Below, piece after piece: positions 5,051 through 64,000 of a stretch of DNA of 64,000 nt. Source of the DNA: Peronospora farinosa (Eukaryota > Oomycota > Peronosporomycetes > Peronosporales > Peronosporaceae); NCBI GenBank assembly GCA_947646735.1, contig CANTFK010000991.1, positions 372,001-436,000 on the forward strand. Reading direction: 5' to 3'. The notes under the pieces were generated by a model. It had not been told where the DNA came from. It searched no databases and saw only the letters and a list, made by a program, of their open reading frames with translations. Position 1 is the first letter of the stretch. Each line of letters starts with the position of its first letter. The position numbers and the translations under genes are program-made.

Positions 5051-5974
5051 GTGAGCGAAGCTCAGCGCATCGTGAATGAGCGATTAGCCATCACACGTAA
5101 ATTCCGTGACGCGATGGAAAGCGCACAGGATAAGCAAACACAATATGCAGACCAGCATGGTCGCAAAAATAATGACAACTTTAGTGTGGGGGACAAAGTG
5201 CTATTAAGTACTGCTACCCTACCTAAACATGCAATTTCTGTACTACCTGGTGGTCCGACTAATCTATTGACCCGATTCATTGGGCCCTTTACAGTGATTG
5301 AAGAAGTTGGAGACCTATATTATAGGCTCACTCTCCCACCGTATATGAAGACGCACCCCGTATTTTACGTGGGTCGTCTGAAACGGTATGTTGATCCAGA
5401 AGAGATCACATATCCACATCGGTCTAACGAGACCAATTGTGACGTCGTCTTTGAGTCGAGCGTCGCGGCTGATCAGGCGACGAGGAAGCCGAGAGGCTCC
5501 CCGTATATGAACGAGACGATAGAGTACTCGGCGATCGAGGAGGACTTCGCGCTTGACGCGGGTCTCTCATCACCAGTCGCTCTAAGATGTCCAAACGGGT
5601 CTTCAGGCGGTCATACCCCTGACGGTCCCTCGTCCTCACATCGCGCAGATCCGAGGTCAGTCGCGAGACTTGACTCTCGAGATCTGCCACCTGCCTCTTC
5701 AGCGCAGCGGACTCAGCCTGCTACTGAACAGCAGCAGGATAGGTAGCCGAGAGTAGGTGCGCGTAATCGCCACTCCTATCGGGCGCCACCTGTGTTAGTG
5801 GACACGGATGGGAATACGCGCTTCCTTGTTGGAAGGCTGTTGGCCCACCGGTTTGTGAAGCGAAAGCTCCAAATCCTTGTCCAGTGGAAGGGTTACCCAA
5901 CGAGCTTTGACTCGTGGGAGCCTGTGGACGCTCTTTACGCGTCGACGTGCCTGGGCTGGTGGCTGCTTATGTGA
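5051..5974 (+). pseudogene. TE-A integrase C-terminus: GPY/F module, linker and chromodomain
   Basis: The frame from 5051 carries the GPY/F module (RFIGPFTVI, then HPVFYVGRLKRYV near 5353-5391), a Ser/Pro-rich linker, one in-frame TAG at 5744-5746, and then a chromodomain at about 5795-5940 with RFLVGRLLAHR, LQILVQWKGYP and DSWEPV. The aromatic residues of the methyl-lysine cage are partly recognisable. Chromodomains on integrases direct insertion to heterochromatin in chromoviruses. The linker and chromodomain are covered on the other strand by a long antisense frame. Confidence 0.85.
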
Positions 5975-6869
5975 AGCAGCACCAGCTGTCGTCTTTCTGA
6001 TAGGTACGGATGGACTAGCAGAAGAAGCGTGGCGAGAATCAATTGGGGGTCGCTTACCACCCAAGATTTTATGCGCACGCTTCATGGCGAAGCTGATTCG
6101 CTGTGACCGTTGTTTCGTTGCACCTACATGGAATGTAACACGGCGCTGAAGTTCAGCTTCATATTCGTTAGAACGCAGCACGACTGGAATTGGGAAAGCA
6201 CGACCAAGTCCTTTGCCCTGCTTTTTCCACAAGGGAAAGACGCTATCAAACTTGTGAGTGTCAATAGTTGCACGCTGCAAAAGCGCTGCACTAGACCCAT
6301 CCGAGTACATCCACTCAGATGGAGGTGGCATTGGTGGCAAGCCACCACTCACGTAGCCGCCCTCGCGACGGCGGGCTAGTGAGGCCGAAGGTGTACTCGA
6401 TGGAGCTTTAAGCTCACACTCACCTGAGTCTGACTCTCCATTATGGATTGTCAAGACATCAGTATGAGGAGTCACATCTGACTGAGTCGCGACTACTCCT
6501 TTCGAAGTAGCGTGCTCAGTCTTAGTCGCTGCGCTCGTAGGCGCAGGTGACGAGGCCTTTCCTTCACTTGCAGGAAGCATAGAAGCTTTCTCAAGGACGG
6601 ATGCCTCAAATGATGGGGACATATGTCCCATCAATGCGCTTTGCTCATCTCCACTTTGGGGTGATGGCAGTGGCGTAGTCTCATTGTAATCTACAATGAG
6701 CTACAATGAGAGATGGATCTTCATCCACATTATCGTGAGATGGAAGATTCGCCTCAGTGCCTGACGCACTTTGCGACGGCTGCGATAAATCGCGGCGCAT
6801 GCGCTTAGTGTTGGACTGCATGGGCTCCTTTGCAGGCGACCCATCAGCCTTACCACGCTTCGGTGGCAT
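5424..6869 (-). pseudogene. TE-A antisense gene in the 3' end of the element, broken
   Basis: On the strand opposite to pol, an ATG at 6869 (MPPKRGKADGSP) opens a frame with a basic start, a Ser/Pro/Glu-rich N-terminal half, an AFPIPVVLRSNE block near 6150-6190, a basic stretch with KRAHKILGG, and a C-terminal heptad-rich helix (SRLTSDLRDV and RLKTRLDILERLV, 5690-5500) ending in a Ser/Arg-rich tail. Full length would be about 480 codons, as in TE-F. TE-A has a 10-bp tandem duplication near 6692-6712 that shifts the frame and a second indel near 5910. The helix lies opposite the linker before the chromodomain. I recognise no named family; function unknown. Confidence 0.6.
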
Positions 6870-6974: not shown

Positions 6975-7561
6975 GTAACAGGGCATCTAGTTACACGTAA
7001 ACATTAAGTAATTTACTTAATTTTTGGTCTAAAAGTATCCATGATTATTTTTGACCTGTCACTTGGGTGCGATACACAAATGTGATCCACCCTCGTGAAT
7101 GCGATATCCATTAATGGATTCACATGGGAAGGGATGACGCTAGTTGAAGCTAGGCATCGCGACGTCTCAGAAGGACGTCAGTCGCAAGTTTAAATCTAGA
7201 TTTAAACTCATGCGACAGGATACGCTTCTAAAGAGTCGCGTATCCGATCTATATACATATATAACCAATCAGTAGTTAAGTTTATATTAATTATAATTCA
7301 TTAAATATAGCTCAGTCTTGAATTTGCTAAACACATAAGCACCGCGCACGAGAAGCTGAAGAAGCTTCTGCGTGACGCCGGTGATTTCTTGTTTAGAAGT
7401 TCGTTGCACTCTCGCTTAAGCGAGAGGCAACTGGTGGTACGACTGCTTAAGCAGTCCACCAACCGCATAACCACCCTCTACGCGAAGGTAAGACGGTCTA
7501 ACCGCTTCCTCGCTTGTGCTGAAGGTGTGTGCTAGTAACTTCGTAGAAGTCCTCGTCTACA
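6975..7561 (+). repeat. TE-A 3' LTR
   Basis: Starts TGTAACAGGG and ends GTCTACA, 587 bases, TG...CA ends. It matches the LTRs at 18668-19266 (minus) and 31314-31911 and 40035-40634 (plus). It holds several short palindromes, for example around 7190-7212 (TTTAAATCTAGATTTAAA) and GGATACGC/GCGTATCC near 7218-7247. Confidence 0.93.
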
Positions 7562-7939
7562 GTACTGGTGCCCTGGAAAACACTTCTTCACAGAGTCGAA
7601 GGCATATTGATGTTCTACCTTCCATAAATATACTGCTTTTTCTTTGCCCGTCATCGCACTTGGTTGCCTTATGAAACATGAAAGGTATAATATATTGCAT
7701 TGCTTATCGCATCATCGTCATGCTAATTTTACTGCGCCAGTCGATAAATGACAATTCCAAATTTAGACCCAATTACATCAATATATACATTTAATTATTT
7801 TCAAGTCTTTGTATGTTTACATTAATTTATCTTTTAATCGTGCGTAGGTTGTATCAATTAATTTACCTTGTAAATAAATAATGTATTTATTAAATACGAC
7901 GGTCCTCCTACGTACCCGCCCCTACCACACATTTGCAAA
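7562..7939. other. AT-rich intergenic stretch
   Basis: No coding signal, RNA gene or clear repeat seen. It is the likely upstream region of the mannosyltransferase-like gene. Confidence 0.6.
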
Positions 7940-9580
7940 TTGTACCGCAGCATCCCGATTAAGTGTGTACCAGCCTCATCACTCTGGCCTCACTTCATCA
8001 TGACCTGTTTGTCCAGCTTCATGCGACGGCGGTGGATCGTCTTGGCGTTCGCTGCGATTGTCATTTTCGTGCTAATCGACTTTTTCTTCACGTGGGAGCG
8101 ACTTACTTTGACAGCGTGGTCCTCGTCCACCTCACATTTTTTTTCCATCCGCGGCAATTCCACCATCATTCAGACCAAGTCCGATTCTTTGGCGCAACCA
8201 AATGACTTTGCGGATGCTACTATACCCAAGACGACAGTACCCAAGGTGATACCGATGAAGGTGGAGCATAACGCCTCAAGGACTGCAAGTGAACGTGAAC
8301 AGATTCAAGTAGATGATCGTGCTACGTCAAGGCTCGAACTTCTTGAGAGCGAGCAGACTGACCAATTGGAGCTGGACAAGCAGCTTGTTTACACCCTGAG
8401 TCAGATCATACAGCGTACAACAACAAAGCGTGGCATCGTGATGCCACTTTTCGAGAAACTTACGGGATTGGGATTGTCTTTGATTTTGGAACTGCGTGCA
8501 ATGGGAGTCAGTTTGCCCATTGAAGTGCCTCACTGCACTGAGCTGAACCCTAAGACCCTTGAGTTATTACAAACGAAGAAAGAGCTGGGTAAGATTCGAG
8601 CTTATGATATCTGCGATCTTGCCGCCAATGCCAAAAGTGCCACGAACACTTCACGTCCTGTTTTTTGCGATAATATTGACGCCTGCCATACGAAGTTTCG
8701 TTCTTTCATGATAAAGCCCTTATCAATTGTTTATTCGCAGTTCGACCAAATCTTGATGCTCGACGCCGATACGTCTTTCTTCCTAAATCCGACAGTTCTG
8801 TTTGACTCGGAAAAGTTCAAGACTACGGGTATACTTTTAATGCACGATCGCATAGGCGGTGCAGGACATTTGGCTAGAAAGGCGCCCCGACAACCCAATT
8901 TGTCGGTGGAGCAGGAATATTTTTCAACGTTCAACGTAACCCCATTCAGGCCGGTACCAACACTTCAGCGACCAAAGGCTACCGTTCCGAACAAGACCCC
9001 CGTCAAGCTAAATTTTGAGCCCAGCGACTTTTTGCTAAGCAGTCACTCTTTCAATCGCCGTGCCAGTCATCAAGCTGATTCATCGCAGATGTTCTGGAAT
9101 AAGAAGCTTCAGCCTCGTGCGACAGTAATCTTGGCGTCTTTTCTTGCACAGAGCGACATCGCACCACCTCCATCTCACGGTGACAAAGAGTTATTTTTCT
9201 TTGCAAGTGAATTGGCAGAGACGCAGTACTCCTTCTCGGATTACTCTGCCGGATCTATCGGCTCAGAGTTCGAGGACGGCGGTCCCAAGAAATCAACGCT
9301 CTGTGGTATCTTGGCTCACGTGTTCCCGATTCGCCAAGAGGGAGTGCCTGACGACGACGTACCTTTGTTTTCCCTAAACAACAAGCGTGTTTTGATCTTT
9401 AGGCCGGACTTGGAGCCATTTTATTATATGAAGGCGCGGCCCTGGGAACTTTTTCCTGGTTTCATTGGAAGTCGACATCTCCATTGTCCATTTAACATCA
9501 CTGTCGGCCGTTTAAACGAGTCCCACATCAAACACTTTACAGAACGACGGAAGTTTTTAGAGCAAGTAAATGCGTGGTAA
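7940..9580 (+). CDS. Putative type II membrane mannosyltransferase, GT71 (MNN1-like)
   Basis: A 546-codon uninterrupted frame. A single hydrophobic segment at residues 32-50, after three arginines, fits a signal anchor of a Golgi type II glycosyltransferase, with a stem of low complexity to about residue 150. The block around residues 270-300 reads FDQILMLDADTSFFLNP then TGILLMHDR; the D-A-D (275-277) is the metal and sugar-nucleotide binding motif seen in the fungal alpha-1,3-mannosyltransferase family GT71. A GT71 enzyme transfers mannose from GDP-mannose to glycan chains in the Golgi. Near the end, PFYYMKARPW is probably part of the acceptor side. The first ATG is used here; ATGs at residues 21 and 28 would keep the anchor and may be the real start. 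Substrate is inference from family only. No operon context; flanked by transposons. Confidence 0.72.
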   Translation: MYRSIPIKCVPASSLWPHFIMTCLSSFMRRRWIVLAFAAIVIFVLIDFFFTWERLTLTAWSSSTSHFFSIRGNSTIIQTKSDSLAQPNDFADATIPKTTVPKVIPMKVEHNASRTASEREQIQVDDRATSRLELLESEQTDQLELDKQLVYTLSQIIQRTTTKRGIVMPLFEKLTGLGLSLILELRAMGVSLPIEVPHCTELNPKTLELLQTKKELGKIRAYDICDLAANAKSATNTSRPVFCDNIDACHTKFRSFMIKPLSIVYSQFDQILMLDADTSFFLNPTVLFDSEKFKTTGILLMHDRIGGAGHLARKAPRQPNLSVEQEYFSTFNVTPFRPVPTLQRPKATVPNKTPVKLNFEPSDFLLSSHSFNRRASHQADSSQMFWNKKLQPRATVILASFLAQSDIAPPPSHGDKELFFFASELAETQYSFSDYSAGSIGSEFEDGGPKKSTLCGILAHVFPIRQEGVPDDDVPLFSLNNKRVLIFRPDLEPFYYMKARPWELFPGFIGSRHLHCPFNITVGRLNESHIKHFTERRKFLEQVNAW

Positions 9581-20471: not shown

Positions 20472-21068
20472 CTAGGGCAGCGCGTCATCAGTTCTCTTGA
20501 ACGCTTGAGTACGTTTAAACTTGCTGACTTTCTCTCTGGGCAGCGCGTCATCAGTTCTCTTGAACGCTTGAGTACGTTTAAACTTGCTGACTTTCTCTCT
20601 GGGCAGCGCGTCATCAAGATCATTAAGATCATTAAGACTTTTAGAACGTGTAAGCTTGTTTCCTTCCTCTCCGGACAGCGCGTTATCAAATCTATTAAAC
20701 CTTTCAGTACGTTTAAGGTCCTTGACTTTCTTCTCGAGCAGCGCGCCATTAAGATCATTAAGATCATTAAGACTTTTAAAACGTGTAAGCTTGTCTCCAA
20801 GCACCGCGTCATCAAAATTTAAATTGTTAGCACTTGTTTTAGAATCAGCCATCAACGATTGAAAGTTGAAGGGAGTCCTCTCTTCCCCGTCAGCGATATC
20901 AGCCTCGGTCACCTCTTCTCTTAGATTGCGACGCATTCCATCCGTCCGCTCGCGTTGAGAATTCACATCCAAGGTCTTGACTTGAATTAAGCCTTTCGAG
21001 CTCGCGACGATGCTGTCGCAAGCGATGGAGGTGAGAGTCACGAGTAGGAGAAACAGGTTCAAGTGCAT
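20472..21068 (-). CDS. RXLR-dEER secreted effector with C-terminal tandem repeats
   Basis: 198 codons. Residues 1-17 are a typical signal peptide core (MHLNLFLLLVTLTSIA). RNLR at 47-50 is a canonical RXLR motif, followed at once by EE and then GEER at 61-64 (dEER). Spacing is standard for Peronosporales effectors, which are secreted and act inside plant cells to alter immunity. The C-terminal half is made of degenerate lysine/arginine-rich repeats containing KSLNDLND and then exact 21-residue units of the type DDALPREKVSKFKRTQAF; no clear W or Y motif is seen. The stop at 20472-20474 falls inside the third copy of this repeat, where the other copies have an Arg codon; the next in-frame stop lies 22 codons further at 20403-20405, so the protein may have been shortened by a nonsense change or the repeat grew by copying. 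The ATG is the only one before the signal peptide and has an oomycete initiator about 30 bases upstream. Confidence 0.85.
   Translation of the reverse strand: MHLNLFLLLVTLTSIACDSIVASSKGLIQVKTLDVNSQRERTDGMRRNLREEVTEADIADGEERTPFNFQSLMADSKTSANNLNFDDAVLGDKLTRFKSLNDLNDLNGALLEKKVKDLKRTERFNRFDNALSGEEGNKLTRSKSLNDLNDLDDALPREKVSKFKRTQAFKRTDDALPREKVSKFKRTQAFKRTDDALP
20475..20600 (-). repeat. Two identical 63-bp tandem copies inside the RXLR gene
   Basis: Spacing of the GGGCAGCGCGTCATCAG block is exactly 63 bases (20475, 20538, 20601). Two whole copies are identical as read, so the duplication is recent; it preserves frame (21 codons). Confidence 0.9.
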
Positions 21069-21094
21069 GGTTTGTCTGGATCTCGTCCGATTCG

Positions 21095-21101
21095 GAAATG
21101 A
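21095..21101 (-). promoter_or_regulatory. Oomycete-type initiator before the RXLR gene
   Basis: On the minus strand TCATTTC followed by CGAATC lies 27-33 bases before the ATG at 21068, matching YCATTYY of oomycete core promoters. Confidence 0.5.
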
Positions 21102-21846
21102 ACAGCTTTAAAGCGAACAGGTTTTTGGTGTTTTGAATGGACACACGGAAATGTTACAGATGTTTGTCGAATACATTTGGTAAGGTATTGAATTACCAGA
21201 ATTATATATCAACTGTATATCGATTCATTCTACGACATCTCGGTGGGAACTTCTTTGGTTTGGTAGTTCTGAATAGTTTCCTTTATCTACTTAAAAATTC
21301 TATAGGTGCCTGGTGCTGTGCCTTGCGTGCCAAGCACATTTCCTCTTTCACATCATTGTCGAATCGGATTTGATACGATCGACCATACCTCAAACATTAT
21401 ATTTAAACAACACAAAAAGGAGGTGCATCGATCTCAATACACGAATTGCATGTAACGGATTGGATTGGCAAGCTACATTCACTCGCGACTTGGAAATGGG
21501 GTCGTGTAAAAGAAAATATGAATGTACCACTCTCCTGCTTCGCCCCAACTTAAACTTATAAAAGCAAGTTAATATTAGTGGTATCTATCTACCCATCATG
21601 CTATCACGCTCTGTCTTGCTGATGAGCACGGATAGGACTCTGTTAGTGTCTCAAGGATCTTAATATCTGTTTGCGTTTGTATGAAGCGGCTCAGTTTCTA
21701 GATAAGCCATATAAATTTGTCACATATATGAGATCGTAGCATTGAGACATACTCTGTATCGATTATTTTGCATTCCTTGGAATACGACCATTTCTTAAAG
21801 CATGAAACTGCCAGCATGAACTACCAAATCTAGCTAAAATTGATAT
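21102..21846. other. Upstream region of the RXLR gene
   Basis: AT-rich, only short chance frames; no RNA gene or repeat seen. Confidence 0.5.
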
Positions 21847-22225: not shown

Positions 22226-22900
22226 TTGTCGAGCGTCAACTTCACGACCTGTTACAGGTAAGGCTCAACGTAACCTGATTGCTTGTAATTATGACAACGT
22301 GATGGGATGAAGAGAGACGGACACCACATGAGACAACCAAGATGCCATGGGGATGGGACCGGGGGAGACGGTCGACATGTGGGACAGGATATAAGACGTC
22401 CGGACTGGACGCACGCCATCTGCTACTTGACCTGGTCAAGTTGCACTGCAGGAAGATTACATGGTGTATGGAGTAAACGAAAAAAATTAACACTCAATAT
22501 AATTTAGTTTTCTATTTTTAATACCTTTGCACGAGTGCAACTACGAACACATCTTTCTCACATTGGGAACAAGAACTGGGCGTGGCGAGTTGATGCTGAG
22601 ATCTGTTATGGAGATCTACTCCCATTCAGCGAATTATGCATAATTCGCCAATCCGAATGGGGTTTAAATCAGCCAATCAGAATACCCAGAAAGGATCGCA
22701 CCGACGGACAGACGATAGACACTATTATATTACTAGGGCGTTTGCCCGTCGTTCCGATGGAAGGAAAGCGGGCCATAAAATTAGATGTAAATATGTCAAA
22801 AGGATTAAATGCTGGTTGAACAGCTTGTGTGCAGCTTTTTGATGCTGAAGCTTGTTACGGAGAACTATTTTGCTTTATTTATGCAATGTGAATGACGTTA
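22226..22900. other. Intergenic flank left of TE-D
   Basis: No gene supported. The stretch GCCAATC...AAAGGATCGCACCGAC...TACTAGGG (about 22660-22738) is similar to 30901-30955 to the right of TE-D, so both flanks may hold parts of one older repeat. Confidence 0.45.
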
Positions 22901-23360
22901 TGTAACGGGGTGAGCCCGTTACATAATATTGACACTTATATGAAGTGTCAATAAAAAATATTATTATAACTAATAATATTTGACAATATTATCTTTTCTT
23001 ATGATATTGTTCCTAGATCTCCTTGAAGTTGGAGATGCCCTATCATTGGTTGATATGGGCCATCATATCAACCAACGTGCTGACCAATGACCGATGGACG
23101 CGCGCAATGAGTGGAGGGCAAGTTGTCAACTTACATAGTTGTAGTTTAATATAGTTAACATAGGTTATAACAGATTAGTTTTATTAAGATAGTTAACTAT
23201 ATTAAATACAGTTTCCTTTTCCTTCTCAACTAAGCGTGTGTTTAGTTGAGTGACTTCCTCTGCTCACGTGTACGTGAGGTAATTGGGGCACCTGCTTTCA
23301 CTGTCATCAGTGAAGGCAGAATATACTGTTATCAGTATAGTCGGAGGGTGTCCTATTACA
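22901..23360 (+). repeat. TE-D 5' LTR
   Basis: TGTAACGGGG...CTATTACA. Contains hairpins CTCAACTAA/TTAGTTGAG (23225-23250) and CTCACGT/ACGTGAG (23263-23278) that have different arm sequences in the 3' LTR. Confidence 0.93.
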
Positions 23361-28399: not shown

Positions 28400-29165
28400 T
28401 TACTGTCAACAGCAAACCTGCCTAAACATGTAGTGACTAACGTGGGAAGCAATATATTGTTGCCCAAGTACATTGGTCCGTTTCGTGTATTGCGCCGACT
28501 AGGCAACGCATACACGATCGAGATGCCACGCAGAATGCGTACGCGTACTACGTTTTACGTGGGACGTCTTCGTCCGTACGTTCAGTACTCGGCTTCTTCG
28601 AACGACGAAGATAGCCATTACTCTCAAGAATCCCCTTCATATTCTTGTTGTCACGAACCAGATTCGATACCTGGTCGTGTAGGATGATATCTTCCCATGA
28701 TATTGGACGACATCCTGACGAGCTGGCGCCAGCTCGTTACTCAGAGAATGAAGTCGGCGTTCATTCTCCAATAGTGCGACAGCATTGTTTGCCCGAGACT
28801 TCTCATGGTCAAACCCAAGCTGTCGCACAATGTCCTCTAAGCAGCGACGCTTATCCCGTTCGTGATCAACATCACAACGGATATCACGAGTTACACGGGC
28901 AAACCCGTCTAACTCAGCAGCCAAGTCCGATGAAAGAATCGGACAGAGTTTTTCCTCCACCACCGCATCCGCTGGTGGACTCCCATGGTGGGAAGCGCTT
29001 CCTCGTGGAACTATTGCTAAATCACCGCGAGGTGAAGTGACGTCGGACGAGTTATCTCGTCCTGTGGCGTGGCTATCAACCTTCGGCGGATAGCTGGGAA
29101 CCTCGAGCCCAACTGATGGCCGACGTTCCTGGTCTTGTCGAACAGTGCGACAAGGGACACCCGAT
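28400..29165 (+). pseudogene. TE-D GPY/F module and chromodomain
   Basis: YIGPFRVLRRLGNAY and FYVGRLRPYV mark the GPY/F module (28433-28590). After a linker, KRFLVELLLNHREVK, a TGA at 29038, then SYLVLWRGYQPSADSWEP in the same frame form a chromodomain (about 28990-29110). The antisense frame 28637-29491 covers linker and chromodomain. Confidence 0.78.
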
Positions 29166-30296
29166 GGTGAAGGACCATCGGAAAACGAGCGCCCAGCGCG
29201 CTCGTAAAGGGATTTCAAAGTATCAATCCCTTCACGCATCTCAGAAGAGATGCGAGTCCTCCACCAGGGCTCAGTAAGGAGGTACGCATCCTTAGGCGCT
29301 CTTGACGAGGTGCTCAGGCACCCCGGGCATGGTTCGCTCCAAGAGAGGCATAACAGGCCTGCCACTCTAGATAACCGGTGCAAACGATAGCATGCACCGG
29401 ACGTACTTCGTTTCTCAAACTTATTGCGGCTAGCATAAAATATTTGAAACCAAGCCTCTTTCCCAACGTTTAAAACGTTGGTGATAAACACGTTCCAAGA
29501 TTGGAGGAACGCGTCAGCCTCACGCTTCTTGTGTAGGCACTACCATCGATGTTCAAGAAACACATTGATGTAATAGTCGTTCTCCGTGCGAAAGATCTTT
29601 GCACTGGCGTCAAGGCCATGAAGCTTTGACGCATCAAACAACGGTATGGGGAACCGTTCGTTGTTCTTTCCAGACCAACGAACAAGCAGATGCTTAGATA
29701 GCATCAATAGCTTGCGATCAGGAGCAAGACGCAATACGTTGCGGTCTAAAGCCTCCTGCGTGGTGTCAACAGAAGAACCGACACCACGTGCATTAGTATC
29801 GACATAAGGACCGACACCACGTGCATTAGTATCGACAGAAGGACCGACACCACGTGCATTGATGTCAGTAGAAGCACTGACATCACCCTTACGGTCCCCA
29901 CCGAGTCACTATCCTTCGACTCGTTTGGCGAGTCGTCTGATTCATCAGACGACCCGAACATTTCACGGTACATTGATTCACTCAATGTACCACGATCCCT
30001 CTTCGTAACATTTGACGACGAGGTATCACCCCGGGAGAGCCCGGAAGTGATATAGGTGGCTTTGAGTCGGATGCGTCATCCGACTCACCAGAGTAGTCAG
30101 CGACTAACTCTGGGTCAACATCTTCACGTGGCGCTTAGCCACGTGAACTTGCAACAAACGTTGCAGGCTGATGTTGACTTCCAGCAGACACATCAGTGTC
30201 TGCTGGCTGAGGCTGTGAAGCCTCAGTAGCGGCTGCACACAAGCGTGCAGCCGAGCTCTTTGCTGCCTTAGCAGCGACGCGCATTGACTTTGTCAT
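28637..30296 (-). pseudogene. TE-D antisense gene in the 3' end of the element, broken
   Basis: Minus-strand ATG at 30296 (MTKSMRVAAKAAKSSAARL) opens 53 codons to TAA 30135. Further pieces follow in order: an acidic one with MFGSSDESDDSPNESKDSDS (29985-29746), one with NERFPIPLFDASKL (29734-29540), and a 284-codon frame (29491-28637) that ends in charged, heptad-like sequence (ERDKRRCLEDIVRQLGFDH; NERRLHSLSNEL). Layout and the FPIP block parallel the TE-A and TE-F antisense genes. Near 29760-29880 it holds a short tandem repeat (ACCGACACCACGTGCATTAG type). Function unknown. Confidence 0.5.
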
Positions 30297-30393
30297 AGCG
30301 AGAAAAATGTTGGAATATAAGAAAGCCCAACAAGTGCTCCTTTCCCATAGTCACTAAACAGTCACTAATGTGACTGTTGGTCGAGGGGGGTGA

Positions 30394-30854
30394 TGTAACG
30401 GGGTGAGCCCGTTACATAATATTGACACTTATATGAAGTGTCAATAAAAAATATTATTATAACTAATAATATTTGACAATATTATCTTTTTTTATGATAT
30501 TGTTCCTAGATCTCCTTGAAGTTGGAGATGCCCTATCATTGGTTGATATGGGCCATCATATCAACCAACGTGCTGACCAATGACCGATGGACGCGCGCAA
30601 TGAGTGGAGGGCAAGTTGTCAACTTACATAGTTGTAGTTTAATATAGTTAACATAGGTTATAACCAATTAGTTTTACTAGATAGTTAACTATATTAAATA
30701 CAGTTTCCTTTTCCTCTACTTCTAAGCGTATCGTTTAGAAGTAAAGCTTCCTCTGCCTCTTGTGTAAGAGAGGTAATTGAGGCACCTGCTTTCACTGTAA
30801 TCAGTGAAGGCAGACTATACTGTTATCAGTATAGTCGGACGGTGCTCTATTACA
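30394..30854 (+). repeat. TE-D 3' LTR
   Basis: Begins TGTAACGGGG after the purine tract TCGAGGGGGGTGA and ends CTATTACA. Nearly identical to the 5' LTR except for a block at 30715-30775 where the hairpin arms differ. Confidence 0.93.
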
Positions 30855-31233: not shown

Positions 31234-31911
31234 TGTATCAGGGCATCTAGTTACACGCAAACATTATTTAATATACTTAATGTAAGGTCAAAACGTTCCA
31301 TAATTACTTTGGATGTGACAGGGCATCTAGTTACACGTAAACATTAAGTAATATACTAATGTTTGGTCTAAACGTATCCATGATTACTTTTGACCTGTCA
31401 CTTGGGTGCGATACACAAACGTGATCCACCCTCGTGAATGTGATATCCATTTATGGGTTCGCATGGGAAGGGATGACGCTAGTTGAAGCTAGGCATCGCA
31501 ACGTCTCCGAAGGACGTCAGTCGCAATCTTAAATCTAGATTTAAGTTCATGCGACAGGATACGCTTCTAAAGAGTCGCGTATCCGATCTATATACATATA
31601 TAGCCAATCAGTAGTTAAGTTTATATTTAGTAATAATTTATTAAATATAGCTCAGTCTTGAATTTGCTAAACACCGAAGCACCACGCACGAGAAGCTGAA
31701 AAAGCTTCTGCGTGACGTCGGTGACTTCTTGTTTAGAAGTTCATTGCACTCTCGCTTAGCGAGAGGCAACTGGTGGTAAGACTGCGTAAGCAGTCGACCA
31801 ACCTCCTAACCACCCTCGCACGCGAAGGTAAGACGGTCTAACCGCTTCCTCGCTTGTGCTGAAGGTGTGTGCTAGTAGTACGAGGCAACTTCGTAGAAGT
31901 GCCCGTATACA
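31234..31911 (+). repeat. TE-F 5' LTR with a duplicated first 80 bases
   Basis: The LTR start occurs twice: TGTATCAGGGCATCTAG at 31234 and TGTGACAGGGCATCTAG at 31314. The two copies differ at several places, so this is not a fresh tandem copy. From 31314 the length is 598, close to the 600-base 3' LTR. Confidence 0.85.
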
Positions 31912-31928: not shown

Positions 31929-31981
31929 TCCTTCCCACGACCCGTCTCTCTGAGCGTGCGTGTGGTTAAGATGGTCCTAAT

Positions 31982-33052
31982 ATGGACTGGAGTGACTTCC
32001 CTCACCTCTCCCAACATCATAGGGAGTTGGAAGAGCATATGGCGCAGGGACTTGGAGAACAAGCCCTGGTCAACCTCTTGCATTGTCCTCCTGAGCAACA
32101 TGTTGCTCAGTTGGAGCAATTTGAGGCGTTTGTGCTCGGACAACGTAGAAACGCGTCCGAGGTAAACAGCCAAGCCACCGCTAATTCCATCACTAAGACT
32201 CAGGATGAGCTTAGGCTTGAGCAGGCACGTAATGAGGCGCTCAACAGAGCTGTTGAGACGCTCTCTGCCCGGCCTACTCAACCGAGGCCCATTCGGATGG
32301 ACCCTCCGAAGTTCGATGAAGCTACCCCTCCCACGATTTTTCACTGGCTAAAAGCAGTTGAGCAATGTGGAGCGGCGAAGCTCATCGAAGACGACACCAG
32401 AATGGTGTCGTATGCCATGTCCAACTTGCGTGGCAAAGCGTCAGAGTGGGCGTACTCTGCGCTGATGGCTAATGCTGATGCATTTCCATCATGGGCGATC
32501 TTTAAGGCAAAGATTCGCGCCATGTATCAGCCGCCTAGCAACGAAGTGTTTCTTATGGCGCGCTTCTTTATAGCACGACAGGCGAAACGCTCTCAGCAAG
32601 AGTATGTGCAGGAGATGCGTTCGCTGTCGGCGTCCATTAATGGGGAACCGATACCAGAGCGTATCAAGGTGGCCACGTTCATGAATGGACTTAGGCACGG
32701 CCCATCGCGTCAGGCTCTTTTCAGAAAGGTGCCAGCGACGATGGAAGAGGCAATTAACATTGCCTTAGTTGAGGAGCAATCCTACAACAGCGCCTCGGCG
32801 ACAGCCTATTACAGGCCGTCGTCCGAGAAGTCTGATGCCACTCCTATGGAGTTAGGCAATGCAGATGTGATCTGCTACAAGTGCGGCAAGCGAGGCCATA
32901 TGATGGCTCGCTGCTATGCCAAAGTAGCTGCTGGTGCTAAGGCAGCCGGCAAAAAGTCTCCCAAGCCGAAGGGAGGTGCGAAAAACCAGCGTGCACGACG
33001 CACGGGTTCAGCACCTGCCCAAGATGGGTCGGGAAATGCGGGAGCGCAGTAG
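31982..33052 (+). CDS. gag: TE-F Gag, intact
   Basis: 356 codons from ATG, 70 bases after the LTR, to TAG. N-terminal helical part (MDWSDFPHLSQHHRELEEHM), capsid core with YAMSNLRGKASEWAY and MYQPPSNEVFLMARFF, and one zinc knuckle CYKCGKRGHMMARCY near residues 297-311, followed by a basic tail. Gag would form the virus-like particle and bind element RNA. It is the only uninterrupted retroelement gene in the window, so this copy could still supply Gag in trans. The homologous genes in TE-A and TE-C are broken. Confidence 0.92.
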   Translation: MDWSDFPHLSQHHRELEEHMAQGLGEQALVNLLHCPPEQHVAQLEQFEAFVLGQRRNASEVNSQATANSITKTQDELRLEQARNEALNRAVETLSARPTQPRPIRMDPPKFDEATPPTIFHWLKAVEQCGAAKLIEDDTRMVSYAMSNLRGKASEWAYSALMANADAFPSWAIFKAKIRAMYQPPSNEVFLMARFFIARQAKRSQQEYVQEMRSLSASINGEPIPERIKVATFMNGLRHGPSRQALFRKVPATMEEAINIALVEEQSYNSASATAYYRPSSEKSDATPMELGNADVICYKCGKRGHMMARCYAKVAAGAKAAGKKSPKPKGGAKNQRARRTGSAPAQDGSGNAGAQ

Positions 33053-38244: not shown

Positions 38245-38487
38245 TTAGTGTGGGGGACAAAGTGCTATTAAGTACTGCTACCCTACCTAAACATGCAATT
38301 TCTGCACTACCTGGTGGTACTACTAAGCTATTGCCCCGATTCATTGTGCCCTTTACAGTGGTTGAAGAAGTTGGAGACCTAAATTATAGGCTCACTCTCC
38401 CACCGTATATGAAGACGCACCCCGTATTTTACGTGGGTCGTCTGAAACGGTATGTTGATTAAGAAGAGATCACATATCCACATCGGT

Positions 38488-39929
38488 CTAACTAGACCGA
38501 TGGTGACGTCTGTGAGTCGAGCGTCGCGGCCGATCAGGCGACGAGGAAGACGATAAGCTTCCCGTATACGAACGAGGCGATAGAGTACTCGGCGATCGAG
38601 GAGGACTTCGCGCTTGACGCGAGTCTCTCATCACCAGTCGCTCTAGGATGTACAAACGGGTCTTCAGGCGGTCATACCCCTGACGGTCTCTCGTCCTCAC
38701 ATCGCGCAGATCCGAAGTCAGTCGCGAGACTTGGCTATCGAGATCTGCCACCTGCCTCTTCAGCGCAGCGGACTCAGCCTGCGACTGAACAGCAGCAGGG
38801 TAGGCAGCCGCGAGTAGGTGGGCGTAATCGCCACTCCTATCGGGCGCCACCTGTGTTGGTGAACACGGAAGGAAATACGCGCTTCCTTGTTGGAAGGCTG
38901 TAGGCCCATCGGTTTGTGAAGAGAAAGCTCCAAATCCTTTTCCAGTAAAAGGGTTACACAACGAGCTTTGATTCATGGGAGCCTGTTGACGCTTTGCGCG
39001 TCGACGTGCCTGGGATGGTGGCTGCTTATGTGAAGCAGCACCAGCTGTCTTCTTTCTGCTAGGTCCGGACGGACTAGCAGAAGAAGCGTAGCGAGAATCA
39101 ATTGGGGGTGGCTTACCCCCCAAGATTTTATGCGCACGCTTCATGGCGAAGCTGATTCGCTGTGACCGTTGTTTCGTTGTATCTACATGCAAGGTAACAC
39201 GGCGCCGGAGATCAGCTTCATATTCGTCGGCTGTTTCGTTAGAACGCAGCACGACTGGAATTGGGAAAGCACGACCAAGTCCTTTGCCCTGCTTTTTCAC
39301 AAAGAAAAGACGCTATAATATTTATGAGCGCCAATAGTGGCACGCTGCAAAAGCGCTGCGCTAGACCCATCCGAGTTCATCCACTCAGATGGAGGTGGCA
39401 TTGGTGGCAAGCCACCACTCACGTAGCCGCCCTCGCGACGGCGGGCTAGTGAGGCCGAAGGTGTACTTGGTGGAGCTTTAAGCTCACACTCACCTGAGTC
39501 TGACTCTCCATTATGGATTGTCAAGACATCAGCATGAGGAGTCACATCAGATTGAGTCGCGACTTCTTCTTTCAACTTAGCGTGCTCATTCTTAGTCTCT
39601 GCGCTCGTAGGCGCAGGCGACGAGGCTTTACCTTTACTTGCAGAAAGCATAGAAGCTTTCTCAAGGACGGATGCCTCAAATGATGGGGACATATGTCCCA
39701 TCAACGCGCTTTGCTCATCTCCACTTTGGGGTGATGACAATGACGTCCTCTCATTGTAGTCTAAAATGAGAGATGGATCTTCGTCCACATTATAGTGAGA
39801 TGGAAGATCCACCCCAGTGCCTGACGCACTTTGCGACGGCTGCGATAAATCGCGGCGCGTGCGCTTAGTGCTGGACTGCATGGGTGCCTTTGCAGGCGAC
39901 CCATCAGCCTTACCTCGTTTCGGTGGCAT
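38488..39929 (-). pseudogene. TE-F antisense gene in the 3' end, one frameshift
   Basis: Best preserved copy of the family 1 antisense gene. ATG at 39929 (MPPKRGKADGSPAK) opens 210 codons ending at 39297; a one-base indel near 39300 separates these from a 270-codon frame (39300-38488) beginning KKQGKGLGRAFPIPVV. The protein would be about 480 residues: basic start, Ser/Glu-rich disordered half, FPIP block with ETADEYEADLRRRV, basic middle with KRAHKILGG, then heptads (LKRQVADLDSQVSRL; YDRLKTRLYILERLV) and a Ser/Arg/Pro-rich tail. It overlaps the chromodomain on the other strand. Proline, serine and arginine content is unlike pol. No known family recognised. Confidence 0.6.
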
Positions 39930-40034: not shown

Positions 40035-40634
40035 TAGAAAAAGGGCATCTAGTTACACGTAAACATTAAGTAATATACTAATGTTTGGTCTAAACGTATC
40101 CATGATTACTTTTGACCTGTCACTTGGGTGCGAAACACAAACGTGATCCACCCTCGTGAATGTGATATCCATTTATGGGTTCGCATGGGAAGGGATGACG
40201 CTAGTTGAAGCTAGGCATCGCAACGTCTCCGAAGGACGTCAGTCGCAATCTTAAATCTAGATTTAAGTTCATGCGACAGGATACGCTTCTAAAGAGTCGC
40301 GTATCCGATCTATATACATATATAGCCAATCAGTAGTTAAGTTTATATTTAATTATAATTCATTAAATATAGCTCAGTCTTGAATTTGCTAAACACCGAA
40401 GCACCACGCACGAGAAGCTGAAAAAGCTTCTGCGTGACGTCGGTGACTTCTTGTTTAGAAGTTCATTGCACTCTCGCTTAAGCGAGAGGCAACTGGTGGT
40501 ACGACTGCTTAAGCAGTCGACCAACCTCCCAACCACCCTCGCACGCGAAGGTAAGACGGTCTAACCGCTTCCTCGCTTGTGCCGAAGGTGTGTGCTAGTA
40601 GCACGAGGCAACTTCGTAGAAGTGCCCGTCTACA
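40035..40634 (+). repeat. TE-F 3' LTR
   Basis: 600 bases ending GTCTACA; the start is degenerate (TAGAAAAAGGGC in place of TGTAACAGGGC). Confidence 0.93.
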
Positions 40635-41113: not shown

Positions 41114-42470
41114 ATGACGCCTCCTGGCAATGAGTCACAGACTCTTCGGGACCTCATTGAAGACAACCTTGACGAAGCGGTTGATTACAAAAGTGAAACC
41201 GTCTTTGTGGGACCCGATGGGTCCCCTTTAGCCACCCTTACGGGTGAAGATGAAAGTAGTCATGCACCGAATCCGTTCCCTAAACGTGGTGCTGCAGATG
41301 CGCTAACAGCGTTACGTGACCCGCCTGACGTATCGTCAACGGCGACGGTTACTAACCCACTTGACGAACAACAGCAGCAGACCATTGATCAAGAGGAAGG
41401 CGCCAAGCGTTGGACGAAGAATATGGCTAGGCTCAGGACTACCGACAGTATAGGTTGAAACCACCTACAGTGGAAGAACGCCTAAAGGAGGCATCTGGTC
41501 ATTCTCTCTCTGGCTGGGCCTTTCGGCCTGAGACCATTTTGCCCGACGCGAACGGCTCTTCGACAGCGCTATCTGGAACCCCATATTACTATGCAAATTT
41601 AATACTTGGCACGCCTCAACAGGCAAGTGCGTGGTGTGCAGTTCCTCCCATAATGGGGGTTCCCATCCTTCTGTTCGCGGGGGAAACCGAAAAAGAAGAA
41701 GACACGGCTTTTAGCCGCTGGGCGCATTATGCGCGACGTTTAAGCAGCATGTGGGCTCTACGGGCAAGTGCCGATGTGTCAGATGTTTGTCTCTAACGGA
41801 AAATGCGTTACGATCACGCTAAGCTGAAGGCCCGGGAAAAGTTGAAGTCTCAACGAACGCAATATGCGTCTGCTATCCAGCACTCCAGCGTTTCGGCTAC
41901 ACCTGTAGCCGCGAGTCCACGACAGGCCGAGGCCGATAACTTGCCTACCACCACCACTACTGGTGAGAAGCGTCACCGCCAACAGGCTGACCCTGCGCAA
42001 GAAGCTTAATAACGTCCACGGCGTATGGACAATCCTGCCGAAGGGGAACCTCAAACTCCCATGAGTTCCACGACTCGGGATAACACCGCCACTTCACCCG
42101 ATACTGGTTTTGACCATGGCGACAACGCTTCTGCAGTAGAAGTTCCACATGGAACTGAAGGTTCCCCTGCCCATCAAGCAATGCCGGAGGGTCCGGTGTA
42201 CCGGCACAAGTTATCGTGTCAAGCTACTTCAAGAGGTGAAGTATCTCCGTGAGACTGTGTAGACGATGAATATTCGCCTCGGGTCGCTGGAGCAGAGTCG
42301 AACCCGATTGCAGTCTCAGCTTGACCTTTTGGTGGAGATGCTTCGTCCCGCGACAATGCCGATAAACTCGGCGCGAGCGCCTTTATGTTTACTTGGGACG
42401 GATCCCGATATGGTTTCAGCATGCCGACGTATAATACAGGATGTGTACGCAATATGCGCGGCAAATTAAG
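41114..42470 (+). pseudogene. TE-E antisense gene in the 3' end, broken
   Basis: Opposite to the TE-E pol strand. ATG at 41114 (MTPPGNESQTLRDLIEDNL) opens an acidic Thr/Asp-rich half to 41458; after a frameshift the next frame (about 41455-42252, with stops at 41794 and 42007) carries VPPIMGVPILLFAGETEKEED and WAHYARRL, then KLKAREKLKSQ. In a third phase near 42215-42360 a heptad helix (KLLQEVKYLRETV, one TAG, RLGSLEQSRTRLQSQLDLLV) ends the protein. Order and placement opposite the GPY/F-chromodomain linker match families 1 and 3. Function unknown. Confidence 0.5.
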
Positions 42471-42560: not shown

Positions 42561-43500
42561 TGTAGGTACGTTCTTAGCATTAAGTAATACTTGGTCTCCG
42601 ATCTCATAATTATCAATACAATTTCTGCCTTAGCATCCGCATAATCTTTTTGTTTGTCTTGGCTATCAGCCATTGCGTCTTGCACATGTCGTAAGAAATT
42701 TAGTCGCGTTGCGAGAAACGAGTTCACCTGTTTCTTAACATCAGCAAGTCGATCAGCAACTTCTCCCCCACCAAGCCCTGAACCACTCGGTGGTAGCGTT
42801 AACGGAACGCATGGGTGTGTGAGCTTATTCACATAGAACGGAGTGTAGCCGGTAGAGGTGTGCACAGAGTTATTGAGCTCGGACTTAGCAACAAGGAGCA
42901 TAGACCTTAAACGCTAAGGCGTTTCAGCACACGATTAAAAAAACAATTGCCATAGGCAAGCCATGTTGGCGAAACACTCGGTCGATAAACAGCTCCGCTG
43001 TACCCTCACAATCGATCGAGTCTGGCACAGCCGCTAAGTGAGCCGTCTTGTTCAAACGGTCAACAAAGACCACAATACCTGTATTGCCATGCGAATCTTT
43101 CGGTAGGCCAAATACAAAGTCCATACTAATGGACTCCCAGCACCCAGTGGGAATAGGCAAACTAGCCAGCGGCGCTGCCGAATGGGGCGAGGGTTTCACC
43201 CGTTGACACGTTTCACACGTACGCACATATGTGCTCACCCATTTATATAATTTGGGCCACCAAAAACTTTGGCATACTGCCCCATAGGTCTTTCACGACC
43301 CAAGTCACCACCAATGGCGGTGTCATGTACCTCATAGAGGATACGATACTTCAGGTCCTCGTCATGAGGAACCGCAATACGCGGAGGATCCGCTACATAT
43401 GTACGATAGTACAACAGCCCCTCATCGATAGAATATCGATGGAGGCTCGCACGTAATCGTGCCGAAAATTTAACGCCGAGTCTTTTAACTCATCACTGCC
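42560..43500 (-). pseudogene. TE-E integrase with an internal deletion of the catalytic core
   Basis: The CETCQRVKP end of the HHCC domain and the first Asp (SMDFVFGLPKD) are at 43220-43110. After GLPMAIV the sequence jumps to NRVLKRL, so the second Asp and the Glu blocks are deleted (junction near 42940). The later helix (LNNSVHTSTGYTPFYVN; ADVKKQVNSFLATR) is open at 42901-42554. It cannot be catalytic. Confidence 0.82.
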
Positions 43501-43990
43501 AAGAGCATGTAGCAACGCTATACAGTGATCATCTTAAGCATACGCCGTACGAATGAAATCTGTGATAGAAGACGACAACGTCGTAACATATTCAATCTCA
43601 TCGTCAGGTCTGCGTGACAACGCATCAGCCAAAGCATTTTGCTTGCCCGGCTTATACTTCACCTCGAAGTTATATTCAGCAAAGAATGAAAGCCATCTGG
43701 CCATTCTCTGCGAGAGGTGAGGCGACGGAGTCGCAGTGCGTAAAGATGCATGATCGGTATAGATCACAAAAGGTTTCGAGCCTAGCAGATGAACTCTGAA
43801 TTTAACTATAGCATACTTCATTCCAAGTAGCTCTTTGTCATGAACTGGATAGTTCTTTTCTGCAGCTTTCAGCTGGCGAGATTCAAAGCGATTACACGCT
43901 CACGACCTTCATCATCTGTTTGTAACAGAGCACTGCCAATGGAAAAATCCGACGCTAAACGGTCGGTCAGGGTCTGACAAAGCCAAATTA
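43430..43990 (-). repeat. Inverted repeat partner of 47568-48163
   Basis: The RNase H region here is the near-perfect reverse complement of 47568-48163, including the same frame lesion near the CTGGCGAGATTCAAAGCG block. Ends are more diverged than the middle. Confidence 0.88.
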
Positions 43991-44575
43991 GGAGCATGAA
44001 TAAGGCTATCCTACACCGCTTGAAAAGCATTCCCATCTACGGCATGCCAACACCATTCCACATCCTTTTTAAGGAGATAGGATAATGGCCGAGCCACATC
44101 AGCTTTATTCTCGCTGTACTTATGTAAGTAATTGACAAGGCCAAGCCATTTACGCAAGTCATTCTGAGACTGTGGAACAGGCCAATCGACAATGGCCTTG
44201 ACCTTAGAGGGACCTGCTCTTAGGCCTTATTTTCCAATGAAGCACCCTAGAAAGGGGATTTCTTCGGCCCCAAAGATGCACTTAGATATATTAAAATATA
44301 GCTAATTAGTGCGCATGCACTCAAGCACAGCTCGCAAATAAACGATATGGTTCTATTTATCCGACCGCCCATGTTCAGCACGACGACGAACAAAAATGCC
44401 ATCAAACTACGTCTGCGCATACGAAACAATTGCGTCACCAAACGGTTGAACTTAGCCGGAGCATTCGACAGCCCCTGGGGCATCACTAACCACTCCCAGA
44501 GTATACCGCTCGTAGTACTTACCGCAGTGATCGAAATATCGCTAGCTCGCATGAGCAATTGGTAATAACGTTCTG
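43534..44575 (-). pseudogene. pol: TE-E RNase H and partial reverse transcriptase
   Basis: RNase H tail is open at 43821-43534 (FVIYTDHASLR, QRMARWLSFFAEYNF, ADALSRRP). RT is read in pieces back to 44558 (SGILWEWLVMPQGLSNAPAKFN), with the YFDD region scrambled near 44350-44400. The fingers part of RT is missing; homology ends at about 44575. Confidence 0.82.
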
Positions 44576-45231: not shown

Positions 45232-45290
45232 CTTGGTAGCACTTGTAGTCAATCCTACACCTGAGTCTCTAAGACTGATCCTCTGTGAGG

Positions 45291-46288
45291 ATCGAGAATC
45301 AAAATCACCTCTCTGAGGCGCAACGAATAGCACTATATAGATTATCTACCTACGTTGGGACCAATCAAATCAAGGCCATTTTGGCCCAAGGCCCGGAGAT
45401 CATCAATGCTCGCCTTGAGGCCTTCATGCATGATGAGGCTACGCTACTCGGGCAGGTTCACGACCAGGCAGCGTCAGCTGCGCCTACGCAGTATATCCCG
45501 GTACCTGTGCCCGATGTAGAGACAAAGGCTCGCCCACTCGTTATAAACGCTAAAACCTTTGAGGGGAGCGAGGGAGAAAATCTTCTCCTCTGGATACGAG
45601 AAGTTGAAATGGCAATGGAAGCCGCCATGCTTGTGTCGAATAAGCACCAAGTCTGCCTGGCCTTTTCTAAGCTCGGTAGAAGAGCTAAAGAGTGGGATCT
45701 AACGAACAATGTCTCTGAAAATGCTGCATTTCCTGCGTGGGAAATGCTTAAAAAGCAATTAACTTGTGTGTTTGCACCGCCTAATCAGGCTTATCGTGTG
45801 CGCTCACGCCTCTTAGCTACCCGACAGGATAAGAAAGAATTTTCGGACTATGTCCAAGAGTTGAGAACTCTCATTGCAGCTATGCAGCAGGACCCTCTGG
45901 CAGAGGAAGTCTGTGTACCCATTTTTATGGAAGGACTTCATACTGGCATCGCCAGGACAAAAAAAATCGTAACCCTTCAGCTTTCGAAGAGGCAGTGAGC
46001 ATAGCGTTTAACGATGAGTTCAATATCAAATCTGCTCGCTATGTTCTGACATGGTATCATTCAAATGCCTCTAATAGGGCGGAACCCATGGACCTCAGCC
46101 ATGCTGAAGAAGCTGAGCTTCAAGCTGCTGAGCAGCCAGGTAACATCCGTAGATGTTACATGTGCGGAAGCAATAGACACCTACGCCCTAGCTGTCCGTT
46201 GCGAAAGCAACGTCAGCATAGGCAGAGCCTTGACCCTGCTCCTAGCCAAAATGAGAGCACGGCAGGGGAAAATGTCAACTCCCAGTAG
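45291..46288 (+). pseudogene. gag: TE-G gag, start codon lost and frameshifted
   Basis: Codon 1 is ATC where TE-B has ATG (MENQNH). The frame to 45998 keeps the capsid (FEGSEGENLLLWIREVEMAM; VFAPPNQAYRVRSR). At an A8 run (45959-45966) the frame must move by minus one to reach NPSAFEEA and the zinc knuckle CYMCGSNRHLRPSC near 46156-46197. The run begins A AAA AAA in phase, so either slippage or a simple indel explains it. Ends TAG 46286. Confidence 0.82.
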
Positions 46289-47567: not shown

Positions 47568-48160
47568 ATAAAGGCCATCCTTATTCGTGCTTCCATTTTG
47601 GCTTTTTCAGACCCTGACCGACCGTTTAGCGTCGGATTTTGCCATTGGAAGTGCTCTGTTACAAACAGATGATGAAGGTCGTGAGCGTGTAATCGCTTTG
47701 AATCTCGCCAGCTGAAAGCTGCAGAAAAGAACTATCCAGTTCATGACAAAGAGCTACTTGGAATGAAGTATGCTATAGTTAAATTCAGAGTTCATCTGCT
47801 AGGCTCGAAACCTTTTGTGATCTATACCGATCATGCATCTTTACGCACTGCGACTCCGTCGCCTCACCTCTCGCAGAGAATGGCCAGATGGCTTTCATTC
47901 TTTGCTGAATATAACTTCGAGGTGAAGTATAAGCCGGGCAAGCAAAATGCTTTGGCTGATGCGTTGTCACGCAGACCTGACGATGAGATTGAATATGTTA
48001 CGACGTTGTCGTCTTCTATCACAGATTTCATTCGTACGGCGTATGCTTAAGATGATCACTGTATAGCGTTGCTACATGCTCTTGGCAGTGATGAGTTAAA
48101 AGACTCGGCGTTAAATTTTCGGCACGATTACGTGCGAGCCTTCATTGATATTTTATCTAT
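47568..48160 (+). pseudogene. TE-G RNase H remnant
   Basis: Open at 47763-48050 with MKYAIVKFRVHLLGSKPFVI, YTDHASLR and YKPGKQNALADALSRRP; identical over this stretch to TE-E 43821-43534. The region before it is frame-shifted in the same way as in TE-E. Confidence 0.85.
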
Positions 48161-63856: not shown

Positions 63857-64000
63857 AGCAATTACATATCAAACTGCCGCAATACAAACAACGCTTTCTC
63901 GACCACATACGCACCTCTACACGCACCCCAACATTGTACACGCATGGCTACAGGTGATCATTGTCGACTTCTATGCGTCTATCCATTCAAAACGCAGGCT

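Follow-up and report, generated by a model that had tools for sequence, protein, structure and literature searches.

Antisense open reading frames at the 3' ends of three retrotransposon families

The stretch of DNA analyzed here, called the window, comprises 64,000 nucleotides of the Peronospora farinosa genome (assembly GCA_947646735.1, contig CANTFK010000991.1, positions 372,001 to 436,000 of the forward strand), and it carries elements of three chromodomain Ty3/Gypsy families in which a long open reading frame (ORF) is located on the opposite strand, between pol and the 3' long terminal repeat (LTR). In the element TE-A (family 1), the antisense ORF occupies 5424–6869 on the minus strand, with the ATG at 6869 and the stop codon at 5424. 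These coordinates, given in a preliminary description of the window, were exact, and the 1446 bp from stop to start equal the length in unbroken genomic copies; the TE-A copy itself is interrupted by frameshifts. TE-F, also of family 1, has its antisense ORF at 38485–39929 (minus strand) with a single frameshift near 39300. In TE-E (family 2) it lies at 28548–30296 (minus strand), and in TE-D (family 3), an element on the minus strand, at 41114–42382 (plus strand); both are broken copies, and their C-terminal ends are approximate. The description of long frames opposite to pol in all four elements, each copy being broken, was thus correct. The encoded proteins have about 480 (family 1), 570–590 (family 2), and 440 amino acids (family 3). 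As had been noted, the ATG is near the 3' LTR: the distance is about 110 bp in TE-A (3' LTR at 6980–7537, plus strand, start approximate), 113 bp in TE-F (40042–40634, plus strand, the start codon lying to the inside), and 94 bp in TE-E (30390–30854, plus strand), while an LTR edge was looked for in TE-D and not found. The TE-F 5' LTR (31320–31911, plus strand) is 98.1% identical to its 3' LTR, and the value is 93.8% between the LTRs of TE-E, whose 5' copy is at 22897–23360 (plus strand). TE-F also has a gag frame at 31970–33052 (plus strand) with a Retrotrans_gag domain and a weak zinc knuckle that remained under the Pfam cut-off.

On the sense strand, the Pfam Chromo domain was detected in the pol of one copy per family, with E-values of 3e-8 (family 1), 3e-14 (family 2), and 3e-10 (family 3). 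In TE-A, the chromodomain and pol tail were placed by homology to another copy at 5813–6001 (plus strand), opposite to the antisense ORF, and this pol copy has an in-frame stop at 5744–5746. The linker between the GPY/F module and the chromodomain, likewise placed by homology at 5427–5812 (plus strand), faces the C-terminal helix and basic tail of the antisense protein (minus strand). The corresponding chromodomain and pol tail of TE-D, opposite to its antisense ORF, are at 41957–42157 (minus strand), the domain itself having been scored in another family 3 copy. In all three families, the antisense gene ends at the GPY/F module or just past it, and the heptad-rich helix that had been described opposite the linker was indeed seen in each of them. 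A block containing PI had been proposed as a further common element, but the relatives of family 2 do not retain the "PI" seen there, and the block is therefore not a motif common to all three families. Two sequence pairings also had to be corrected: NERFPIPLFDASK belongs with the CLEDIV...SNEL helix of TE-E (family 2), and MGVPILLFAGETE belongs with EVKYLRETV...DLLV of TE-D (family 3).

Openness of the antisense frame in genomic copies

We searched 46.85 Mb of the genome in 274 contigs. Copies were collected via the antisense region itself, and copies without it thus fall outside the sample. The family 1 DNA search, in which 40 of 534 candidates were scored, yielded 44 matches, and copy numbers are therefore lower bounds; the family 1 set consists of 40 fetched regions spanning these matches, one of which is truncated at a contig end. 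For family 2, 20 copies were fetched from 40 scored places, and the family 3 set has four copies, three of them 86.7–87.9% like the window copy. At least 470 amino acids from a conserved MPPK start are open in 14 of the 40 family 1 copies. In the 868 bp outside pol, 32 of 40 copies have an antisense frame that stays open over 280 codons or more, compared with 0, 0, 0, 1, and 0 of 40 for the other five frames, and chance is ruled out as the source of the openness in this family. The pol-free part of family 2 is open for at least 330 codons in 12 of 20 copies (other frames: 0, 0, 0, 2, and 0 of 20). Protein searches covered the best candidates only, and rows without a stop were counted by hand: 22 of 87 listed rows span at least 485 of 491 residues in family 1, 11 of 87 span at least 587 of 588 residues in family 2, and 38 of 107 span at least 380 of 393 query residues in family 3, where the query was the open piece of a broken copy and not the whole protein. 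These family 3 rows lie mostly inside open frames of 437–445 amino acids. Unbroken antisense copies are thus common elsewhere in the genome, and those of the window are broken, which agrees with the original suggestion of a once-functional gene, as long frames are intact in many single copies.

An antisense frame of this kind could also arise passively from base composition and the codon usage of the sense strand, with no protein being made. Of the three phases, the one used is the least prone to stops in the tested copies of families 1, 2, and 3, and this aids openness in the overlap with pol. However, about 60% of the family 1 gene has no pol opposite to it, yet this part is open in the large majority of copies and the other five frames are not. 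For the pol-free part, the explanation is refuted by this openness and by the codon-position skew described below, and as a general account we find it scarcely credible.

Purifying selection outside pol

The changes in family 1 were mapped by parsimony onto the tree of the 40 copies, and internal branches, with changes common to several copies, were distinguished from terminal ones. Internal changes in the pol-free part are distributed over antisense codon positions 1, 2, and 3 as 48, 41, and 111 (chi-square p 2e-10). The ratio of nonsynonymous to synonymous change (omega, or dN/dS) amounts to 0.47 for internal branches and 0.78 for terminal ones, and pol itself has 0.37 and 0.65, so that conservation is near that of the other element proteins. 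Changes that involve a stop codon amount to 1 versus 6.7 expected on internal and 5 versus 18.4 on terminal branches, and omega conditioned on the other frame is 0.45 on internal branches (P 0.0005). The contrast between the two branch classes fits selection while the elements were active and decay after insertion. In the pol-free part of family 3, the changes are 45, 27, and 80 by codon position, and omega is 0.51 versus 0.79 for pol (four copies), 0.52 without the window copy, and 0.60 when conditioned on the other frame (P 0.006). The family 2 copies resemble each other too closely (median 97.6%) to permit a strong selection test, but for the core of the protein (1500–1980 in the reference copy) omega is 0.41 on internal branches (6 of 1000 null draws) and 0.55 overall (2 of 1000), and the value conditioned on the other frame is 0.51 (P 0.0035). 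Outside pol, the antisense protein is under purifying selection in families 1 and 3, and in family 2 this applies to the core only.

Several results have to be set against this. The conditioned ratio of the family 1 pol-free part is 0.87 on terminal branches (P 0.11), and the flank upstream of the start codon, which was intended as a neutral control, is itself skewed in this family (22, 31, and 45 internal changes by codon position), with an omega of 0.57 (9 of 1000 null draws, internal), although stop changes are not depleted there (11 versus 12.8 expected). Family 3 is represented by only four copies, and its stop changes are not depleted either (11 versus 6.5 expected), as would be expected if the sampled copies are broken. 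For family 2, omega of the whole pol-free part is 0.89 on internal and 0.93 on terminal branches, both not significant, and the repeat-bearing N-terminal part has 1.52 on internal branches and 1.35 overall; conditioning on the other frame gives it a value of 1.93. In TE-E, the short repeats of this N-terminal part are found at about 29650–29820, and their number varies between family 2 copies. Distinct indels have densities of 9, 42, 38, and 90 per kb in the pol-free part, pol, the overlap, and the flank; only 1 of 8, 0 of 20, 1 of 22, and 1 of 27 of them, respectively, are a multiple of three, and because these are so few, indel density was not used as proof.

One could also assume that the selected product is an antisense RNA, controlling copy number by way of double-stranded RNA, and that the protein is secondary. 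Antisense promoters with non-coding products are described for other elements (PMC7264820), and in Phytophthora infestans, the small RNAs that match Gypsy elements come from both strands (PMC3522703). An RNA function alone would, however, not predict codon-position selection, stop avoidance, and a conserved core, and we therefore judge it improbable. The antisense frame is a real gene that was once under selection.

The overlap with the end of pol

The overlap with the linker and chromodomain of pol comprises about 140–225 codons. The phase is identical in families 1, 2, and 3, with antisense codon position 1 opposite to sense position 1, and doubly silent changes are essentially impossible in this phase (class SS, expected 0.0). 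Stop and openness tests were run on single copies. When sense codons were shuffled synonymously, 4.3–5.3 antisense stops were predicted and 0 were seen (P 0.001–0.006; one family 1 and two family 2 copies), whereas the upstream pol of the same copies showed no such stop avoidance in the same frame. The test was weaker in family 3 (0 stops versus 2.1 expected in one copy, P 0.063). Openness thus exceeds what the sense codon composition accounts for in families 1 and 2, and less clearly so in family 3, and this stop avoidance inside the overlap, together with the third-position skew, also argues against a by-product of sense coding.

In family 1, the overlap is divided, as the chromodomain is constrained in sense and sense-silent changes are depleted in the linker. 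On internal branches, omega of the chromodomain is 0.30 in sense and 2.25 in antisense, and that of the linker is 2.47 in sense and 0.64 in antisense. In the linker, changes that are silent in sense and alter the antisense protein are fewer than expected (14 versus 28.5, p 0.0004), and in the chromodomain they are more numerous than expected (17 versus 8.5, p 0.001). Less favorable is the conditioned ratio, which in the overlap relates changes altering both proteins to those altering only pol: for the family 1 linker, it is 0.93 on internal branches (P 0.38) and 0.87 on all branches (P 0.16). Conditioned in this way, the test indicates constraint in the pol-free parts of family 1 (internal branches) and family 3 and in the family 2 core, but does not by itself show it in this linker; as its ratio is not below 1, antisense constraint there rests on the depleted class, on the stop test, and on the helix that is kept in diverged relatives. 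In the family 3 chromodomain, antisense-silent changes that alter pol are reduced to 1 versus 7.3 expected (p 0.002), and the joint-class counts gave no significant effect in the linker of this family. The family 2 overlap offers too few changes, with 7 internal ones in chromodomain plus tail at a sense omega of 0.21, and nothing was significant over all branches. In stretches of the family 1 pol linker (L012), sense omega is 2.4 to 4.8; if the antisense gene were ignored, such values would pass for positive selection, which is a trap for dN/dS scans of pol.

Relationship of the families and relatives in other species

Profile comparison of families 1 and 3 gave an E-value of 6.7e-8, with a collinear match from the core to the helix, and when only the pol-free halves were compared, the hhalign score was 46.6, whereas 100 column shuffles did not exceed 22.8 and the reversed profile scored 17.2. 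The pol-free half of family 2, which in this comparison reaches about 12 residues into the overlap, scored 20.1 and 17.9 with families 1 and 3, and shuffles (50 each) reached up to 21.1. A likeness of families 1 and 2 in their C-terminal halves (hhalign probability 61–70%) was set aside as evidence of homology, since this stretch faces homologous sense chromodomains. Judged by these profiles, families 1 and 3 share the antisense gene by descent, and family 2 shares its place, phase, and layout. The idea of one conserved gene in all three families can thus be maintained for families 1 and 3, but not, on the basis of the pol-free halves, for family 2.

With the best 8000 candidates scored per family, relatives amount to at least 14 proteins for family 1, at least 189 for family 2 (120 listed), and at least 92 for family 3. 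Named sources among the matches listed are Peronospora effusa, P. farinosa, P. matthiolae, P. destructor, Hyaloperonospora arabidopsidis, and H. brassicae, and none of the relatives among these matches has a precomputed Pfam domain. The family 1 protein is 96% identical to a P. effusa protein over its full length and 96% identical to a P. farinosa protein over 66% of its length. Two clusters at 90% identity that are labeled P. matthiolae contain 1335 and 524 sequences. Relatives in other species have about 40–57% identity, which again speaks against a by-product of sense codons. Family 1 relatives at 47–62% identity retain the helix opposite the linker, and for family 3 it is retained in P. 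matthiolae and H. arabidopsidis. The relatives in other species are probably likewise encoded antisense in elements.

Alternatively, the gene may be a captured host gene or a remnant of another element that was inserted in antisense orientation, the C-terminal overlap being a chance read-through into pol. In favor of this, the folded core sits in the pol-free part, and the origin of such ORFs in plants is described as unsettled as well (PMC7264820). A chance read-through is difficult to reconcile with the fact that boundaries are similar and the phase identical across three families, with the conservation of the helix opposite the linker in diverged relatives, and with a homology between families 1 and 3 that continues collinearly from core to helix. 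Moreover, all genome matches listed have at least 71% identity, although these are best candidates only, among which a weak host homolog would not show. We consider a capture of this kind quite unlikely, if a little less so than the RNA explanation above.

Domains and structure models of the antisense protein

Pfam scans of the antisense proteins of families 1–3 gave only weak, mostly coiled-coil-like matches under the cut-offs. An AlphaFold model of the family 3 protein has a confident core at about residues 140–250 between disordered parts (mean predicted local distance difference test score, pLDDT, 61.8; predicted template modeling score, pTM, 0.36). The family 2 model has a core at about 205–375 and a long helix at 460–565 with a pLDDT of about 95 (mean pLDDT 61.2, pTM 0.36). 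Both models thus combine disordered charged stretches with a locally confident core, and the C-terminal helix is best seen in family 2. Searches for similar folds at an E-value of 0.001 produced no hits, either for the family 3 model (PDB and viral folds) or for the family 2 model (PDB). Near their N-termini (residues 23–66), all three antisense proteins have a VDY plus acidic/serine motif; as a common feature it was rejected, because it scores no better than shuffles, and it could be a short binding motif.

Other features of the window

A frame of 568 amino acids at 7874–9580 (plus strand) has a putative mannosyltransferase domain (PF11051, E 3e-28) and is probably a host gene beside TE-A. 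At 20472–21107 (minus strand), a small frame with a hydrophobic start, an RxLR/EER-like stretch, and subsequent short internal repeats was recognized by eye as a candidate secreted effector. Another putative element is marked by a 589-nucleotide inverted repeat (43424–44012 and 47572–48160, 98% complementary) that flanks a gag frame at 45279–45998. From 48320 to the end of the window at 64000, there is a tandem array of 38 copies of a 407-bp unit, 30 of which are shown at 96–100% identity, and a frame of 186 amino acids in this array overlaps from unit to unit.

Discussion

Plants, as had been pointed out initially, and one fungus are already known to have antisense ORFs in this position; the form described here lies in an oomycete and overlaps a chromodomain. 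Of the plant elements concerned, Grande and RIRE2 belong to the Tat type, which is related to Retand. The antisense ORFs of plant LTR elements such as Grande (gene23), RIRE2, Retand (TRP28), and PvRetro13 resemble those described here in their strand, in the use of the interval between pol and the 3' LTR, in being conserved like element proteins, and in hints at the nucleus (PMC7264820; PMC11963269). The TRP28 domain, which is thought to bind DNA, is encoded by 97% of the clusters of recently active Retand, a non-chromovirus lineage (PMC11963269). In contrast, families 1–3 are chromodomain elements of an oomycete, and no Transposase_28 (TRP28) match was reported in the Pfam scans of their members. 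No mention of an overlap with pol was found for the plant elements; the main text of PMC11963269 has the word "overlap" 0 times. The fungal case is Boty of Botrytis cinerea and Sclerotinia sclerotiorum, with an antisense ORF in the same place (PMC7264820); the likeness is one of place and strand taken from the description. Retroviral antisense genes are a further parallel, for which no sequence relation is claimed: the HBZ protein of human T-cell leukemia virus 1 (HTLV-1) is nuclear (PMC11963269), HTLV has an antisense promoter within the 3' LTR (PMC7264820), and ASP of human immunodeficiency virus 1 overlaps env (PMC8781085). Here, by contrast, the overlap is with the chromodomain tail of pol, and it recurs in three families. 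In the oomycete Ty3/Gypsy element Chronos, a chromodomain also ends pol, and there is an additional archaeal/plant-type RNase H (PMC5348765), which was not reported in the pol fragments scanned here, these coming from broken copies with incomplete coverage. A word count of the main texts of PMC5348765 (oomycete elements) and PMC11540230 (P. effusa) gave 0 for "antisense", and a full-text literature search, evaluated by titles and the starts of abstracts and with most subscription papers and all bioRxiv preprints outside its scope, returned no description of such an oomycete gene.

We propose that each of these Ty3/Gypsy families has an accessory gene opposite to gag-pol that is open, selected, and fixed in its phase through the pol tail, and whose product would have a nuclear role, and we assign this a probability of roughly 0.7. 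The gene starts about 100 bp to the inside of the 3' LTR and runs back through the C-terminal tail of pol, and transcription would initiate in or next to the 3' LTR, at a promoter in antisense orientation. The encoded protein may dimerize via its helix, enter the nucleus by means of basic clusters, and act there on transcription, chromatin, or integration of the element itself. An accessory role in the nucleus is suggested by analogy to GENE23 of Grande, TRP28 of Retand, and HBZ, the HTLV-1 protein with a zipper layout, and by the helix and the basic clusters that are present in all three antisense proteins. On the other side, the overall confidence of both structure models is low, a nuclear function receives no support from any known fold or domain found, and an oomycete initiator consensus scored no better in the antisense strand of the LTR than in shuffles.

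The protein might also be a particle or integration cofactor that works with Gag or integrase and is not a transcriptional regulator. The gene is common to three amplified families, its frame is tied to the integrase–chromodomain tail, and a long helix is predicted, all of which would suit a cofactor. Nothing specific speaks against it; the basic clusters fit nuclear entry and are compatible with both functions. We regard a cofactor as unlikely, but as deserving serious attention.

Within the proposed accessory gene, the overlap consists essentially of a tolerant linker and the chromodomain, and the linker sequence may therefore be set largely by the antisense protein. A more far-reaching version, which we put forward tentatively and at somewhat less than even odds, is that this is an old and so far undescribed antisense accessory gene with a dimerization helix on the back of the linker. 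The overlap would then be divided, with the linker belonging to the antisense protein and the chromodomain to pol, the linker would exist chiefly to accommodate the antisense gene, and two products that act in the nucleus would be evolutionarily locked together.

Few antisense genes of LTR elements are known, mostly from plants and without a proven role, and the extent of selection at their protein level is open. Here, a single genome provides tens of copies in three families, with a clear codon-level signal in the best-sampled family. Selection on an antisense gene of a retroelement thereby becomes directly testable, and there is material for studying how two proteins share an antisense overlap. 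The relatives found also suggest that many "uncharacterized proteins" of Peronospora and Hyaloperonospora are genes of such elements and not host genes, which would affect gene-family counts in these crop pathogens.
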